Source of the DNA: Colwellia sp. MB3u-45
GTDB taxonomy: Bacteria; Pseudomonadota; Gammaproteobacteria; Enterobacterales; Alteromonadaceae
Direction: 5' to 3'
Assembly: GCF_014077005.1 (NCBI RefSeq)
Contig: NZ_JACGVC010000041.1
Coordinates: 1-64,000 of the forward strand
DNA length: 64,000 nucleotides
The notes beneath the pieces were generated by a model. That model searched no databases. It was not told the DNA's origin and worked only from the letters and a program-made list of their open reading frames with translations. Made by a program: the position numbers and the translations under genes. This document shows, piece by piece, positions 8,549 through 14,222 of this stretch. How positions within the stretch are numbered: position 1 is the first letter of the stretch; the number at the start of each line of letters is the position of its first letter.

Positions 8549-10420
8549 TTAAGGCGTAAATTCCTGACGATTTAAGCCATATTTTTTTAACTTTGACGCC
8601 AATGTTGTCGGTTTTAAGCCTAATACCTGAGCAGCACCCTTCTCACCATAAATTTTACCTTGGCAATGTTTTAACGCATTAGCCAAATTGGTTTTTTCAA
8701 GTGATTTTTGCTCCTCTACTCTCATCAACTGCGGAGCAACTTTAGGGTTAAATGATTCATGATTAAATACCGATTCATTAGCCAAAAACTCGAAGTTTAT
8801 TTTATTACTTTTGGCTAAGATTATCTGACGTTCAATAATATTTTCCAGTTCTCTAATATTGCCGGGCCAAGGGTATCGAGTTAAATACTGCATTTGCGAA
8901 ACTGACACTTGTGGTTTAGGTCGATTAAAGTTTAAACACACTTTATCAATAAAATGTGTTACTAAAAGCGGAATATCATCGCTACGCTCTCGTAATGCCG
9001 GTGAATGAATAGGAAATACATTGAGCCTAAAATATAAGTCTTCTCTAAATTTATTCTGCTGAACTAAGGTCTTTAATTTTTGATTAGTGGCTGAAATAAC
9101 TCTGACATCAACATGTCTGGTTTTCGACTCTCCTACCCGCTCAAACTGCTGCTCTTGTAATACCCGCAATAATTTCCCTTGCAGTTGTAAAGGAATTTCA
9201 CCGACTTCATCTAAAAAAATAGTCGCGCCATCTGCCAGTTCAAAGCGTCCAACTCGGTCTGATATTGCGCCTGAAAAAGCGCCTTTTACATGACCAAAAA
9301 ATTCACTTTCAAATAAGTCTGCCGGTATTGCCGCGCAATTAACTCTAATTAATGGCCGGGCTTTTCGTTCACTGACTTCATGAATCGCTCTAGCAATTAA
9401 CTCTTTACCTGTACCTGATTCACCAGTAATGATGACATTCGCATTAGTAGCTGCCACTAATTCTATTTGATTAACCATATGCTGCACCTGCATACTCTGA
9501 CCAATGATCTGATGATGATTAAAATCTGCATTTAATTCTTCAAGCAAATACGCATTATCCATTTCAAGGCGCTCTTTTAGTGTATCTACCTCTTTTAAAG
9601 CGTTTAACAATTTAGCTTGAATAGACTTTCTTTGTGTTATGTCTCGAAAAATAACTACGGCGCCGATTAATAAACCATTTTCAGTTACTGGGGTACTTTT
9701 ATATTCTACCGCCACTGGCATACCACTTTTTGACCAGAACACTTCGTCATCAACACTGTGTACTTCTCCATCTTTAAAAGCAGCATAAATCGGGCATTTG
9801 TAAGCGTGGTAATGCTCGCCATTGGCATGCGAGTGATGAATCACGTCATGAATACTTTTCCCGACAAGTTCTGCTTTTCCCCAGCCTAATATTTGCTCGG
9901 CCGCTGCATTTACAAAGGTGGTATTCCCGTCAACATCTACGCCATATATGCCATCACCTACCGCACTGAGTAACAATTGATTTTGTCGCTCAATTTCTTC
10001 AAATACACTTTCGTTAGCATTCCAATGGACAATACCCGCTTTATATTTAGCTTGCGCTGTTGCTTGGTAGTAACGGGCATAAGTCACTTTGGCACTTTGA
10101 CAAGAAAACAAAAGCTTGTTGTCTAAAGCGCTAGCCGTAATATCTAAATATATTTTTTCATTATTGATGGTGAGAAACAGATCGTTTGTCCACGCTTCGC
10201 CCTGCGCTAATATTTGTTGAGTAAAATGAATTAACTTATCTAAACAGCCAGTAAAAATCTGCGTTACGCTAACCTTTGTTAACGTATTATTTTCTAACTC
10301 AACGTCGCTTTCGATAGCAAATAATACTGCAGCTTTGTGGTTTAACTGCAAAATTTTATTATTAAAAGGATCAATATATAACAGTGCGTTAGGTGCATTT
10401 AAAAATAAGTTCGCTTGCAT
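8549..10420 (-). CDS. Sigma-54-dependent transcriptional activator with PAS domain
   Basis: Enhancer-binding protein that uses ATP to open sigma-54 promoters. Residues 1-120 form a divergent PAS-like region. A clear PAS domain spans ~145-265 and carries His/Cys residues (HSHANGEHYHAYKC, 196-209) that could bind a metal or cofactor. A short coiled coil precedes the AAA+ domain, which has Walker A GESGTGKE (333-340), the sigma-54 contact loop GAFSGA (380-385; usual GAFTGA) and Walker B IFLDEVGE (401-408). A Fis-type helix-turn-helix ends the protein (AAQVLGLKPTTLASKLKKYG). AGGA lies nine bases before the ATG at 10420; an upstream in-frame TTG is less likely. It is divergent from cyanase, across a perfect palindrome and a sigma-54 promoter, so it probably controls the cyanate genes. 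Confidence 0.88.
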   Translation of the reverse strand: MQANLFLNAPNALLYIDPFNNKILQLNHKAAVLFAIESDVELENNTLTKVSVTQIFTGCLDKLIHFTQQILAQGEAWTNDLFLTINNEKIYLDITASALDNKLLFSCQSAKVTYARYYQATAQAKYKAGIVHWNANESVFEEIERQNQLLLSAVGDGIYGVDVDGNTTFVNAAAEQILGWGKAELVGKSIHDVIHHSHANGEHYHAYKCPIYAAFKDGEVHSVDDEVFWSKSGMPVAVEYKSTPVTENGLLIGAVVIFRDITQRKSIQAKLLNALKEVDTLKERLEMDNAYLLEELNADFNHHQIIGQSMQVQHMVNQIELVAATNANVIITGESGTGKELIARAIHEVSERKARPLIRVNCAAIPADLFESEFFGHVKGAFSGAISDRVGRFELADGATIFLDEVGEIPLQLQGKLLRVLQEQQFERVGESKTRHVDVRVISATNQKLKTLVQQNKFREDLYFRLNVFPIHSPALRERSDDIPLLVTHFIDKVCLNFNRPKPQVSVSQMQYLTRYPWPGNIRELENIIERQIILAKSNKINFEFLANESVFNHESFNPKVAPQLMRVEEQKSLEKTNLANALKHCQGKIYGEKGAAQVLGLKPTTLASKLKKYGLNRQEFTP

Positions 10421-10475
10421 AAAAAATTCCTGATGACTTATCAACTAACCCCACCATTCAATTTCTAAGCCAAGC

Positions 10476-10521
10476 AACGATATTTCGTGACAAACAGCAC
10501 GAAATATCGTTTATCACGAAA
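10476..10521. promoter_or_regulatory. Palindromic upstream activator site for the sigma-54 activator
   Basis: AACGATATTTCGTG (10476-10489) and its exact reverse complement CACGAAATATCGTT (10498-10511) flank an 8-base spacer. A further CACGAAA half-site follows at 10515-10521. The site lies between the divergent regulator and cynS, roughly 85-120 bases upstream of the sigma-54 promoter, which is a typical enhancer position. It cannot be a terminator because both flanking genes start here. Confidence 0.75.
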
Positions 10522-10594
10522 AACCGTTGCCTTGCACAGACCAGTAAAATAATTAATATCAATAAAAATCAGTAGTTTAATTAAATTTTAGCTA

Positions 10595-10611
10595 TTGGCA
10601 TAGTTTTCGCA
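10595..10611 (+). promoter_or_regulatory. Putative sigma-54 promoter of cynS
   Basis: TTGGCATAGTTTTCGCA has the invariant GG and GC elements ten bases apart. It differs from the TTGGCAC-N5-TTGCA consensus at one base in each element. The predicted start of transcription is near 10622, which leaves a leader of about 135 bases before cynS. Confidence 0.6.
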
Positions 10612-10758
10612 ATTGTTAATGTCAGTAGATAACAAGGTTAGTCGTTTGATGGTTAAATCAACGCGTAATTTAAAATGCTTGCACTGTGTTGAAAATAACG
10701 CACCAAGATTAAACAGCTAACTTAATCAAATAATATTTTTATATCTTAAGGAAGTCAC

Positions 10759-11199
10759 ATGAATAAGCTCGATGTAACTGAAGCAATATTTGCAATCAAA
10801 AATGAAAAAGAACTTAGTTGGCAGAATATTGCAGACGCTGTGGGTATGTCTATCGTTTGGACAACCTCCGCCTGTTTAGGCATGAACAGTTGGCCTGAAG
10901 TTGAAGCTGATAAAATCATTGAATTTTTAGCCTTACCTAAAGAAACAAAGCAAGCCCTAATGGCCTACCCAACCAAAGAGTGGGATAAGTCAGTACCACA
11001 AGATCCATTAATTTATCGTATATACGAAGTTGTAGGCGTCTATGGCGATACCCTTAAAGAGGTTATTCAAGAAAAGTTTGGTGACGGCATCATGAGTGCT
11101 ATCGACTTTTCTATGGAAGTAGAAAAAGAAGAAAATCCAAAAGGCGATAGAGTCATTTTAACCTTGAATGGTAAATTTTTACCCTATAAATCATGGTGA
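10759..11199 (+). CDS. cynS: Cyanase (cyanate hydratase)
   Basis: Cytoplasmic enzyme that reacts cyanate with bicarbonate to give ammonia and CO2. At 146 residues it is close to the 156 of E. coli CynS. It has the N-terminal helical domain (LSWQNIADAVGMSIVWTTSACLG) and the C-terminal catalytic motif PLIYRIYEVVGVYG with KFGDGIMSAIDF. The catalytic triad is Arg87, Glu90 and Ser113, matching Arg96/Glu99/Ser122 of E. coli. AAGGAAG precedes the ATG. No carbonic anhydrase gene (cynT) is adjacent, so bicarbonate must come from elsewhere. Promoter and enhancer sites point to sigma-54 control, and a formate/nitrite-family channel follows. Confidence 0.95.
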   Translation: MNKLDVTEAIFAIKNEKELSWQNIADAVGMSIVWTTSACLGMNSWPEVEADKIIEFLALPKETKQALMAYPTKEWDKSVPQDPLIYRIYEVVGVYGDTLKEVIQEKFGDGIMSAIDFSMEVEKEENPKGDRVILTLNGKFLPYKSW

Positions 11200-11306
11200 T
11201 CTTATTTGGTGCGCCAAGCTAATTAAAGTTGTGCAACGCTGGCAAATAAAGCCAAACAAACCAAGTTAAAAACTTCATATTCATTAAAAATCAATATGTT
11301 ACATGA

Positions 11307-11323
11307 CTGGCATTCAACTTGCT
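11307..11323 (+). promoter_or_regulatory. Putative sigma-54 promoter of the FNT channel gene
   Basis: CTGGCATTCAACTTGCT matches the sigma-54 consensus TGGCAC-N5-TTGCW with one mismatch and exact GG-N10-GC spacing. Transcription would start near 11334, about 44 bases before the ATG of the channel gene. No second enhancer palindrome was seen here, so the site upstream of cynS could serve both promoters by looping. Confidence 0.65.
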
Positions 11324-11377
11324 TTGTTAGGTAAACAGTAAAATGAATTAACCTTACTATTAAATAGAGATATAACA

Positions 11378-12190
11378 ATGGCTTATATAGAACCCAGTGA
11401 ATTTGTAACCAAGATGGTGGACGCAGGTGAACAGAAAGTTTACATGTCTACCAAAGATACTCTTATACGTGCTTTTATGGCCGGCGCTATTTTAGGCCTA
11501 GCTGCGATATTTGCGATTACGGTGGCAACTAAAACAGGTAGCCCTATTTTAGGCGCCTGTCTTTTCCCTGTTGGTTTTATCATGCTTTATTTGATGAAGT
11601 TTGATCTACTCACTGGTGTATTTACACTGGTACCATTAGCCTTATTAGACAAGCGTCCTGGTGTTACCTTTGGCGGTGTAATGCGTAACTGGGGCTTGGT
11701 CTTTCTAGGTAACTTTGGCGGAGCAATGACCACAGCCTTTTTAATGTCCTTTATTTTAACCTATGGTTATTCGGCTGACGGCGGTGCTATTGCAGCTAAA
11801 GTAGCAAGTATTGGTGAAGCAAGAACCGTAGGTTACCAAGAACATGGCTTAAGTGGCTGGATCACTATATTCTTCCGTGGCATGTTATGTAATTGGATGG
11901 TATCAATGGGTGTGGTTGGTGCGATGATCTCGACTTCTGCTGGTGCTAAAATGGCCGCCATGTGGATGCCCGTAATGTTGTTCTTCTTTATGGGTTTTGA
12001 ACATTCAATTGTTAACATGTTCTTATTCCCATTCTCAATGATCATGGGGGGTGACTTTACTGTTTATGATTATTTGGTATGGAACGAAATTCCAACGGTA
12101 CTAGGTAACCTTGCCGGTGGCTTATTATTAGTAGGTTTACCATTATACTTTACCCATGTTAAAACATCGCCAAGCAGAAAACTTGCTTAA
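11378..12190 (+). CDS. Formate/nitrite transporter (FNT) family channel, probably for cyanate or nitrite
   Basis: Pentameric inner-membrane anion channel of the FocA/NirC fold, 270 residues with six membrane spans. The central conserved histidine is in GFEHSIVNMF (near residue 209), and the NWMVSMG signature near 170 is intact. The first signature reads KFDLLTGVF rather than the usual LFTGN, so the constriction loop deviates from formate and nitrite channels. It follows cynS and has its own sigma-54 promoter. Context suggests cyanate uptake; nitrite or formate are the alternatives, and sequence alone does not settle the substrate. Start choice: the first ATG after AGAGAT. Confidence 0.85.
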   Translation: MAYIEPSEFVTKMVDAGEQKVYMSTKDTLIRAFMAGAILGLAAIFAITVATKTGSPILGACLFPVGFIMLYLMKFDLLTGVFTLVPLALLDKRPGVTFGGVMRNWGLVFLGNFGGAMTTAFLMSFILTYGYSADGGAIAAKVASIGEARTVGYQEHGLSGWITIFFRGMLCNWMVSMGVVGAMISTSAGAKMAAMWMPVMLFFFMGFEHSIVNMFLFPFSMIMGGDFTVYDYLVWNEIPTVLGNLAGGLLLVGLPLYFTHVKTSPSRKLA

Positions 12191-12518
12191 CTCACGCTTT
12201 ATCAATGGCTTATTCAAAGAATAAGCTTGTATAAGTCAATGAATAAATAACTAATACAAATTTGATTAAATAAGTACTCTACTTTTTAATGGGGAAAAGT
12301 GGCTAAATACAAGCCATAAAATTTAGTCTGTAGTTATGCTACTTATAAATTTTATAACGCCGTATTTTTCATTGTAACCATTAAAAATGAGCAGGTCATT
12401 AATCAACTTGGAATAATATCAATGCAGATAAAAGACTTCGTAATTTAGGTTACTAAGTCTTTTTATTGCTTCAAACTTTACCGATTTAAGCTAATTTTAA
12501 TACCATTGGAAACAAGTA
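12191..12518. other. Intergenic region between FNT channel and kinase genes
   Basis: No gene is visible. The region holds the terminator at 12429-12465 and no recognisable sigma-54 site. A GG-GC pair near 12408 has the wrong spacing. Confidence 0.5.
12429..12465 (+). terminator. Terminator after the FNT channel gene
   Basis: AAAAGACTT pairs with AAGTCTTTT across a loop with a further partial TAA/TTA pairing, and a T-run follows. It ends about 53 bases before the kinase gene, which would need readthrough or a promoter close to its start. Confidence 0.6.
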
Positions 12519-14222
12519 ATGAGTCAAGCATTAACTGTGAGTATTGGCGGCGCGACCAATAAAGGTCGAAAAAAAATCAATCAAGACTTTCTCGGCAGCA
12601 TCATTCCTAAAGAACCCATGCTTAGCAGCAAAGGGATTGTACTTGCCATGGCTGATGGTATTAGCTCAAGTAACGTCAGCCAAATTGCCAGTGAAACAGC
12701 AATATCGAGTTTTTTAGAGGATTACTACTGTACCTCTGATTCGTGGTCTGTTAAAAATTCTGCACAAAAAGTCATTAAATCGATTAATTCATGGCTTTAT
12801 TCGCAAACACGTAATAGCCCTTATCGCTTTGATAAAGACAAAGGCTACGTCTGCACCTTCACTGCGCTGATATTAAAGTCAAATACGGCGCACCTTTTTC
12901 ATTCTGGTGATACGCGAATTTATCGTTTATCAGGTCAACAATTAGAGCAATTAACCGAAGATCACCGCCGAGTTGTTTCCGCCGATGTTAGCTATTTAAC
13001 CCGCGCTTTAGGGATTAACCAAACATTTGACATTGATTATCAAAGCCAGCTACTTGAGCAAGGCGATATCTATATTATTGCCACTGACGGCGTTTATGAT
13101 TTTTTAAGTAATGCTCAAATCGCCAATAGCATTAACAATGCCCAGAGCTTAGATAATGCTGCTGATACCATCATTGCACAAGCACTTGCCTTAGGGAGTG
13201 ATGACAACCTCAGTGTTCAAATTGTCCGTATTGATAACGTGCCCAGCTATCAGCTTGATGAAGTGCATCAACTGACCTTGTTGCCATTGCCGCCAAGACT
13301 TTCACCAAGAATGCAGTTTGATGGTTATGAAATTATCCGCGAAATATATATTAGTAGCCGAAGCCATGTTTTTTTAGCGCGCGACAACGACACACAGCAA
13401 ACCTTAGTGATAAAAACGCCATCCACTGAATTAAGAACCGACACGCAATACCTTGAGCGTTTTATGCTAGAAGAATGGATAGCTAAACGCATTAACAATC
13501 CACATGTTGTTAATGCGATCATTCCGAAAAGAAAACGTCATTATTTATATTTAGTGACAGAATTTATTGATGGTATTTCGTTAAGTCAATGGATGATAGA
13601 CCATCCAAAACCAAGCTTAGAACAAGTTAGAAATATTATTGAGCAAACCGCAAAAGGCTTACAGGCTTTTCACCGCCAAGACATGATACATCAAGACTTA
13701 CGCCCAGCTAATATCATGATCGACAATACTAAGACGGTAAAAATAATAGACTTTGGTTCAACCTTTATCGCCGGTGTTACCGATGCTAACACCGAAGAAA
13801 TTATGCGCGGTACCATTCGTTATTCAGCCCCTGAATATTTTTTAGGACAATTAGGTACACAGGCATCTGACCTTTATTCGTTGGGCGTGATCACTTATCA
13901 AATGTTATCAGGTAAATTTCCATATGGTCGTGAAATAGCACAAGCGAACAGCGTATCAGCGCAACGTAAGCTCAACTATAAACCGATGATCAATGATAAT
14001 ACTGAATTACCCCTTTGGATTGACGATACACTTGAACGCGCTTTAAAAATTGATCCCTTAAAACGCTACTCTGTGTTATCAGAGTTTGTTCATGACTTAC
14101 GACAGCCGAATAAGTTATTTTTAGCAAAAACTAAGCCGCCGTTAATGCAGCGTGATCCTGTCATGTTTTGGCAATGGGTTAGTCTTATTCTATTGCTGCT
14201 TTTGATTGTACAGGCACTTTAA
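12519..14222 (+). CDS. Bifunctional PP2C-type phosphatase / Ser-Thr protein kinase with C-terminal membrane anchor
   Basis: Two signalling domains with opposite activities in one chain of 567 residues. Residues 1-240 form a PP2C phosphatase with metal-site motifs NQD (21-23), ADG (45-47), SGDTRIYR (129-136), ATDG (188-191) and DDN (228-230). Residues ~268-530 form a protein kinase with Lys299 (VIK), catalytic loop HQDLRPAN (391-398), DFG (411-413) and SAPEY. The glycine-rich loop is hardly recognisable (YISSRSHVFLA), and the usual catalytic-loop lysine is arginine. Residues ~548-566 are a membrane helix. Related fusions lie beside nitrite/nitrate assimilation genes in Pseudomonas. The position after cynS and the FNT gene suggests a role in nitrogen acquisition; that role is inferred. 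Confidence 0.88.
   Translation: MSQALTVSIGGATNKGRKKINQDFLGSIIPKEPMLSSKGIVLAMADGISSSNVSQIASETAISSFLEDYYCTSDSWSVKNSAQKVIKSINSWLYSQTRNSPYRFDKDKGYVCTFTALILKSNTAHLFHSGDTRIYRLSGQQLEQLTEDHRRVVSADVSYLTRALGINQTFDIDYQSQLLEQGDIYIIATDGVYDFLSNAQIANSINNAQSLDNAADTIIAQALALGSDDNLSVQIVRIDNVPSYQLDEVHQLTLLPLPPRLSPRMQFDGYEIIREIYISSRSHVFLARDNDTQQTLVIKTPSTELRTDTQYLERFMLEEWIAKRINNPHVVNAIIPKRKRHYLYLVTEFIDGISLSQWMIDHPKPSLEQVRNIIEQTAKGLQAFHRQDMIHQDLRPANIMIDNTKTVKIIDFGSTFIAGVTDANTEEIMRGTIRYSAPEYFLGQLGTQASDLYSLGVITYQMLSGKFPYGREIAQANSVSAQRKLNYKPMINDNTELPLWIDDTLERALKIDPLKRYSVLSEFVHDLRQPNKLFLAKTKPPLMQRDPVMFWQWVSLILLLLLIVQAL

Follow-up and report, generated by a model that had tools for sequence, protein, structure and literature searches.

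A probable CynF-type cyanate module in Colwellia sp. MB3u-45 with a predicted three-site operator and an FNT-family channel beside cyanase

The window analysed here is a stretch of 64,000 nucleotides from Colwellia sp. MB3u-45 (contig NZ_JACGVC010000041.1, contig C41 of genome G000 in our numbering, genome size 4.17 Mb). It contains a cyanase gene, cynS, which is followed by a gene of the formate/nitrite transporter (FNT) family and faces a divergent gene encoding a sigma-54 activator. Taken as a whole, the locus is, in our judgement, very probably a CynF-type cyanate-assimilation module, in which the activator would act from an operator of three dyads on the sigma-54 promoter of cynS, the FNT channel would admit cyanate, and cyanase would break it down. 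Judging from the sequences, two parts of this module appear to be new: the three-site operator, which is common to related regulators, and the FNT channel, which replaces an ABC cyanate transporter.

That a divergent activator controls cyanase through sigma-54 is already known in kind, and the locus in the window is a CynF-type variant of this arrangement. According to the main text of the published description, CynF of Pseudomonas pseudoalcaligenes CECT5344 is a sigma-54 activator encoded divergently from cynABDS and needed for its expression; cyanate induces the genes and ammonium represses them (PMC6627978). An earlier note on this DNA had proposed a different control logic for cyanate, but this logic has been published as CynF. 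As far as that main text describes cynFABDS, the window shares with it a divergent Fis-type sigma-54 activator, a sigma-54 promoter at the structural genes and cyanase as the output, whereas an FNT channel and a fusion of a PP2C phosphatase with a Ser/Thr kinase stand in place of CynABD (PMC6627978). The divergent Fis-type activator, the -24/-12 promoter and a clade shared with regulators of cynABDS are all found by sequence; the ABC transporter CynABD is not, and FNT is found instead, which makes the locus a variant rather than a plain member of the CynF regulon. The main text of PMC6627978, its supplement being outside our coverage, names only promoters and makes no mention of an enhancer, inverted repeat, palindrome, NtrC or PAS domain. 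The open literature searched (subscription papers and supplements lay outside the coverage) contained no description of the operator, of an exchange of the ABC transporter for FNT with the regulator kept, or of a link between FNT, the kinase and cynS. The Escherichia coli cyn cluster (cynR, cynT, cynS, cynX) resembles the window in that the regulator is clustered with cyanase; it differs, in the account of the same main text, in its LysR regulator, carbonic anhydrase and MFS transporter (PMC6627978). By Pfam, the window regulator is not of the LysR family to which E. coli CynR belongs.

The predicted operator lies between the activator gene and cynS. A perfect 14-bp inverted repeat at 10476-10511 with a third half-site had been described here. 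The arms (10476-10489 and 10498-10511) are indeed perfect complements, and an imperfect third copy is present at 10516-10527; however, each supposed half-site is a full dyad, so that there are three sites in total. The unit, as read from the sequence, is the 12-bp dyad ACGA-N4-TCGT in three full copies, and each arm of the long repeat is itself an imperfect dyad. A single long palindrome as the unit was rejected, since conservation tracks the three 12-bp dyads. When 13 close loci are aligned, most of the invariant columns belong to the dyads, to an IHF-like block or to the -24/-12 element. The repeat might instead be a terminator, another structure or the site of another factor, and its perfect inversion in its own genome would suit this. 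Such a reading is highly improbable: conservation follows the dyad and its spacing and not the long palindrome, the spacers and the inner four dyad bases differ among relatives, and the presence of the sites tracks the recognition helix of the regulator, as described below.

The operator counts are based on 45 loci with a full-length regulator, which were drawn from two sources: 12 full-length matches in named genomes, and regulator matches in 14 of 394 genomes searched for the order, 22 of 369 for the class and 24 of 398 for the phylum. Loci L034, L035, L036 and L042 were dropped; their upstream regions equal those of L005, L006, L004 and L009. The strict triple was defined as at least 7 of 8 bases per site with spacings of 21-23 and 17-18 bp. 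It was found in 35 of the 45 loci and in none of 9000 dinucleotide shuffles; the 45 loci still hold near-copies (for example, the window, L002 and L003; L037 and L038; L044 and L045) and are hence not 45 independent events. In 42 of the 45 loci, against 2.4 expected, a sigma-54 motif lies no more than 300 bp upstream of the regulator. The earlier note had made its reading depend on the conservation of these elements in relatives, and they are conserved. Measured from the centre of the last listed site, the promoter GG is 64.5 to 98.5 bp away in the loci scored for both, and 75.5 bp away in the window.

The sites accompany the regulator. Of 394 order genomes, 45 have cynS, and 44 surroundings were read (G227 is a fragment), with regulator matches below 250 bits ignored. 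The regulator adjoins cynS in 13 of these 44 loci, and the site pair was found in all 13 (the strict triple in 10) versus none of the 31 loci without it. Among these 31, G139 has a contig end some 250 bp ahead of cynS; what is left of the upstream region there still contains one exact dyad and a sigma-54 motif. In 63 of 67 regulators, the occurrence of the recognition-helix motif PTTL[AIST]S[RK] matches that of the site pair, the 67 being the 71 rows of the regulator tree less four plasmid loci. Two of the four disagreements, L006 and L085, are close helix variants, and the other two, L047 and L048, are nit1C loci. In the 4.17-Mb genome itself, the mismatch-free paired operator occurs once, at this locus, and there is a single copy of rpoN, which argues for one dedicated target region. 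A wider regulon in this genome was considered and rejected: there are two further matches to the operator pair, with three mismatches each, and a reversed control pattern gave 22 matches per strand versus 3. Separately, regulators outside the CynF clade in L057-L061 have ACGA-N4-TCGT-like sites 17 bp apart and face other genes, which in L057, L058 and L060 are alpha/beta hydrolase-like by eye.

A similar arrangement is known for NorR at norVW, where, in the available text of PMC2941729 and PMC4987338, three sites suited to three dimers lie upstream of the sigma-54 promoter; in the window, the likeness is one of sequence. The NorR sites are GT-N7-AC and its sensor is a GAF domain, whereas the window regulator goes with ACGA-N4-TCGT and has two PAS domains (PMC2941729, PMC4987338). 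The Pfam list for the window regulator contains no GAF domain, and its score is 362 bits against the NCBIfam NorR cut-off of 476. FhlA has an AAA+ domain and a helix-turn-helix related to those of the window regulator; its enhancer CATTTCGTACGAAATG, as given in the available text of PMC4987338, has the half-sites in the reverse order, TCGT-ACGA.

Both -24/-12 promoters listed in the earlier note are GG-N10-GC elements at the positions given there (Table 1). Sigma-54 control and a conserved enhancer are well supported by sequence, with the reservation that the promoter ahead of FNT was found in only 9 of 17 loci, including the window (about 0.3 expected from summed shuffle rates). This predicted FNT promoter is lineage-restricted. 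It is probably not driven from the palindrome, because a CynF dyad matching at 7 or 8 of the 8 bases was absent from the cynS-FNT gap in all 17 loci. The second promoter is real in its own lineage, and control by NtrC is likelier than control by the palindrome, since NtrC-like dyads stand ahead of the FNT promoter in three of the nine loci (L004, L005, L009) and CynF sites in none.

For the IHF-like and NtrC-like elements, scoring used what we take to be the consensus sequences of the two proteins. An IHF-like motif of 8-9 out of 9 between site 3 and the promoter is present in 24 of 30 class loci against 7 expected, and 18 of these 24 motifs are located 14-16 bp before the -24 box (40 of the 45 loci scored; L041, L047, L048, L055 and L086, which have no site or promoter anchor, were left out). 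An NtrC-like dyad of at least 9 of 12 in the leader downstream of the promoter was found in 22 of 31 class loci against 1.2 expected; here 37 of the 45 loci were scored, the nit1C loci L047, L048 and L083 and five leaders shorter than 40 bp being left out, and a default position was used wherever a promoter call was lacking.

These leader dyads would speak for another explanation, namely that NtrC and nitrogen status are the main controls of the locus and that the divergent activator has a different target gene or signal. Activator-free cynS loci with a sigma-54 motif and an NtrC-like dyad point the same way (L123 and L137, two of four reported from six submitted). We regard this explanation as unlikely: there is no full NtrC dyad in the window, all regulator-bearing cynS loci of the order survey have the operator and none of the others does, and just one exact double operator is present in the genome. 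NtrC may rather add to control by the activator.

In the tree of 71 regulators, the window regulator belongs to a clade of 49 with a support of 98, which holds loci with CynA, loci with cynS and FNT, and loci with the nit1C nitrilase cluster. The 22 rows outside this CynF clade, used as a contrast group, have no CynS, CynA, FNT or NitB match in their available flanks. At the CynA-labelled loci, cynS follows in all four genome stretches (L104, L106, L108, L109), so the label stands for cynABDS. Three dyads and a sigma-54 motif are seen in plasmid records of Methylobacterium and Bosea, in which cynABDS is annotated; the dyads of an Acinetobacter nit1C record, also three in number, are degenerate. 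As a side observation, the nit1C nitrilase cluster is faced by divergent regulators that form a sister group; L083 has three dyads, those of L100 are degenerate, and L047 and L048 have none.

Several points weigh against the CynF-type reading, besides the near-copies among the 45 loci. The strict triple is missing in 10 of the 45; on a post-hoc reading, six of the ten (L037, L038, L040, L050, L073, L086) have three weaker sites of at least 6 of 8 bases at near-expected spacing, L052 and L055 are left with just an outer pair, and no site is found in L047 and L048, which are nit1C loci. The Loktanella cynABDS record has two dyads and no sigma-54 motif at the threshold used. The IHF-like match in the window has one mismatch, and other classes reach 8 of 9 in only 2 of 10 loci; the NtrC-like dyad was found in 0 of 6 leaders of other classes, and the window leader contains the TGCAC half only. 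Orthology to Pseudomonas CynF is based on layout and clade, Pseudomonas CynF itself being outside the tree; no locus with its published neighbours (gltBD, hemE) was recognised by eye among the listed loci. Finally, the FNT cargo could be nitrite, formate or bicarbonate, as discussed below.

The Pfam domains of the activator (a PAS domain, a sigma-54 interaction AAA+ domain and a Fis-type helix-turn-helix) and of the plus-strand products (cyanase and formate/nitrite transporter) agree with the earlier description of a PAS-containing sigma-54 activator divergent from cynS with FNT downstream. The proposal that the His/Cys-rich stretch of the PAS domain, here PAS-B, is the cyanate-specific sensor is not favoured: H199, H203 and C217 (631-residue frame) are kept in all 49 regulators of the CynF clade and equally in 22, 21 and 21 of the 22 outsiders, which are not beside cyn genes. 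For the cyanate-specific signal, we favour a predicted N-terminal domain, PAS-A (residues 9-130 in the same frame), because PAS-B is common to the clade and the outsiders while PAS-A is conserved only in the CynF clade; on average, 37% of clade residues match the window in this domain, versus 12% of outsider residues. The PAS-A model folds as a PAS domain with a mean predicted local distance difference test (pLDDT) score of 77, and its top match is the PAS domain of NtrB (E 2e-5). A structure model of the full-length regulator (mean pLDDT 60) was too weak for use.

The transporter exchange was seen within one genus: G1083 has cynABDS, G755 and G1023 have FNT followed by cynS, and the three-site operator is present in all. 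G1083 and G755 also share the gene that follows the regulator, an outer-membrane efflux gene (82% identity). Among the 44 cynS loci of the order, CynA was found in 3 and FNT in 31, and both together in none. On the tree, the cynS-FNT label requires four changes, three of them forced by well-supported branches, with the direction of each unsettled. With regulator and operator kept, FNT seems to take over the position of the ABC transporter, which supports it as the cyanate route. The idea of an FNT protein as a cyanate importer beside cynS has already been voiced for Nitrospirales: in the available text of PMC12342949, an FNT-family gene adjoins cynS in cynS-nirC clusters and is proposed as a candidate cyanate importer, as in the window, and no link to a regulator or kinase is described there.

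Alternatively, the activator and cynS may work as described, with cyanate entering by another route and FNT serving to transport nitrite or formate or to provide bicarbonate, which cyanase uses as co-substrate. The product belongs to family PF01226, and its scores are below the NCBIfam cut-offs for both FocA (128 against 290 bits) and NirC (49 against 293 bits). Its closest solved relative is LCIA, an algal protein that we take to be a bicarbonate/nitrite channel, followed by formate channels; in addition, FNT here has its own promoter without CynF sites. The absence of any overlap between FNT and the ABC cyanate transporter in the 44 cynS loci surveyed, and the replacement of the ABC genes under the same regulator, speak against this alternative, which we consider rather doubtful, and a cyanate-importing FNT is preferred.

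The fusion gene at 12519-14222, which lies outside the interval of the earlier note, belongs to the module. Homologues of it were found in 24 of the 44 order cynS loci, always with FNT. Twenty of these 24 loci are without CynF, and in 16 of the 20, the gene order is FNT, kinase, cynS. A paralogue (40%) in the same genome is located between an MFS transporter gene and that of a pyridine nucleotide-disulphide oxidoreductase, which resembles the start of what is presumably NirB. These observations on the fusion and its homologues come from the window, L097 and L148-L191. We infer a role of the fusion in tuning anion entry. A more far-reaching and still tentative idea is a three-part module of FNT, PP2C-kinase and cyanase, so far without a name, in which a membrane-tethered kinase/phosphatase gates the FNT cyanate channel, and lineages differ in how expression is set: through CynF bound to a triple enhancer, through NtrC, or through the two acting together at one sigma-54 promoter.

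The following mechanism is proposed. The activator would bind as three dimers to the three dyads, whose sites, spacing and conservation are observed and whose centres precede the -24 element at cynS by some 75 to 115 bp; the three dimers may jointly supply the hexamer, as NorR does on its three enhancers. IHF, to judge from its motif, would bend the DNA that separates the enhancer from the promoter. PAS-A would read a signal, for which cyanate or a derivative is the likeliest candidate, and this would free the AAA+ ring, upon which RNA polymerase-sigma-54 would be opened at cynS. NtrC may add nitrogen control through the leader dyad of cynS in many relatives and probably through the sigma-54 promoter of FNT in the lineage of the window. 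The FNT channel would admit cyanate, which cyanase would convert to ammonia and CO2. In the weakest step, the PP2C-kinase protein probably adjusts the channel.

Table 1. Predicted features of the cyanate locus (window coordinates)
Feature	Position	Strand	Basis or remark
CynF-type sigma-54 activator: PAS-A (N-terminal), PAS-B with His/Cys motif, AAA+ with GAFSGA, Fis-type helix-turn-helix	8549..10420	-	Pfam; PAS-A via model and fold search; conserved ATG start; CynF clade of 49 rows, support 98
Operator site 1, ACGATATTTCGT	10477..10488		dyad ACGA-N4-TCGT
Operator site 2, ACGAAATATCGT	10499..10510		22 bp from site 1
Operator site 3, ACGAAAAACCGT	10516..10527		7/8 consensus bases; 17 bp from site 2
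IHF-like site, AATCAGTAGTTTA	10567..10579	+	8/9; 15 bp before -24 element; CA...TA columns invariant in 13 aligned loci
Sigma-54 -24/-12 promoter of cynS, TTGGCATAGTTTTCGCA, GG-N10-GC	10595..10611	+	motif, alignment
TGCAC half of NtrC-like dyad, cynS leader	10680..10684	+	full dyad only in relatives; window below 9/12
cynS, cyanase	10759..11199	+	single match in genome; above NCBIfam cut-offs for cyanase
Second sigma-54 -24/-12 promoter, ahead of FNT, CTGGCATTCAACTTGCT, GG-N10-GC	11307..11323	+	9/17 loci
FNT-family anion channel, proposed cyanate importer	11378..12190	+	Pfam, tree, structural relatives, order survey
PP2C phosphatase-Ser/Thr kinase fusion, hydrophobic C-terminal tail (by eye), recurrent partner of FNT and cynS	12519..14222	+	Pfam, neighbourhood survey

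The regulator search in named genomes gave 31 loci, 12 of them with full-length relatives of 63-96% identity, the nearest being Colwellia sp. MB02u-6 (96%). All 12 are divergent from cynS, and FNT is present in 11; no CynS or FNT match was found with the remaining 19 partial regulator matches. The ATG at 10418-10420 aligns with an ATG in 11 of the 12 relatives (L009 is without one there) and is more likely the activator start than the TTG at 10444. In Pseudocolwellia agarivorans (L007:4217-4657), the cyanase is only 48% identical, the FNT protein 94% and the regulator 69%; cynS looks swapped in place, with promoter and operator unchanged. Between the FNT and kinase genes, at 12430-12464, a hairpin followed by a T run is terminator- or attenuator-like by eye. 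An NTF2-like protein is annotated near cynS or the regulator in L102 and L103, and similar ones were seen by eye in L053, L120, L121, L124, L062, L065 and L069; in the last three, it faces regulators from outside the CynF clade.

CynF has been known genetically, and in the literature searched, no binding site for it is described; the present analysis provides a predicted operator. This operator lets the regulon be read from sequence across several proteobacterial classes. The recurrent occurrence of FNT and the PP2C-kinase fusion at cynS loci suggests post-translational control of anion entry. The exchange of the ABC transporter for FNT gives independent support for FNT channels as cyanate importers, which is also relevant to nitrifiers.

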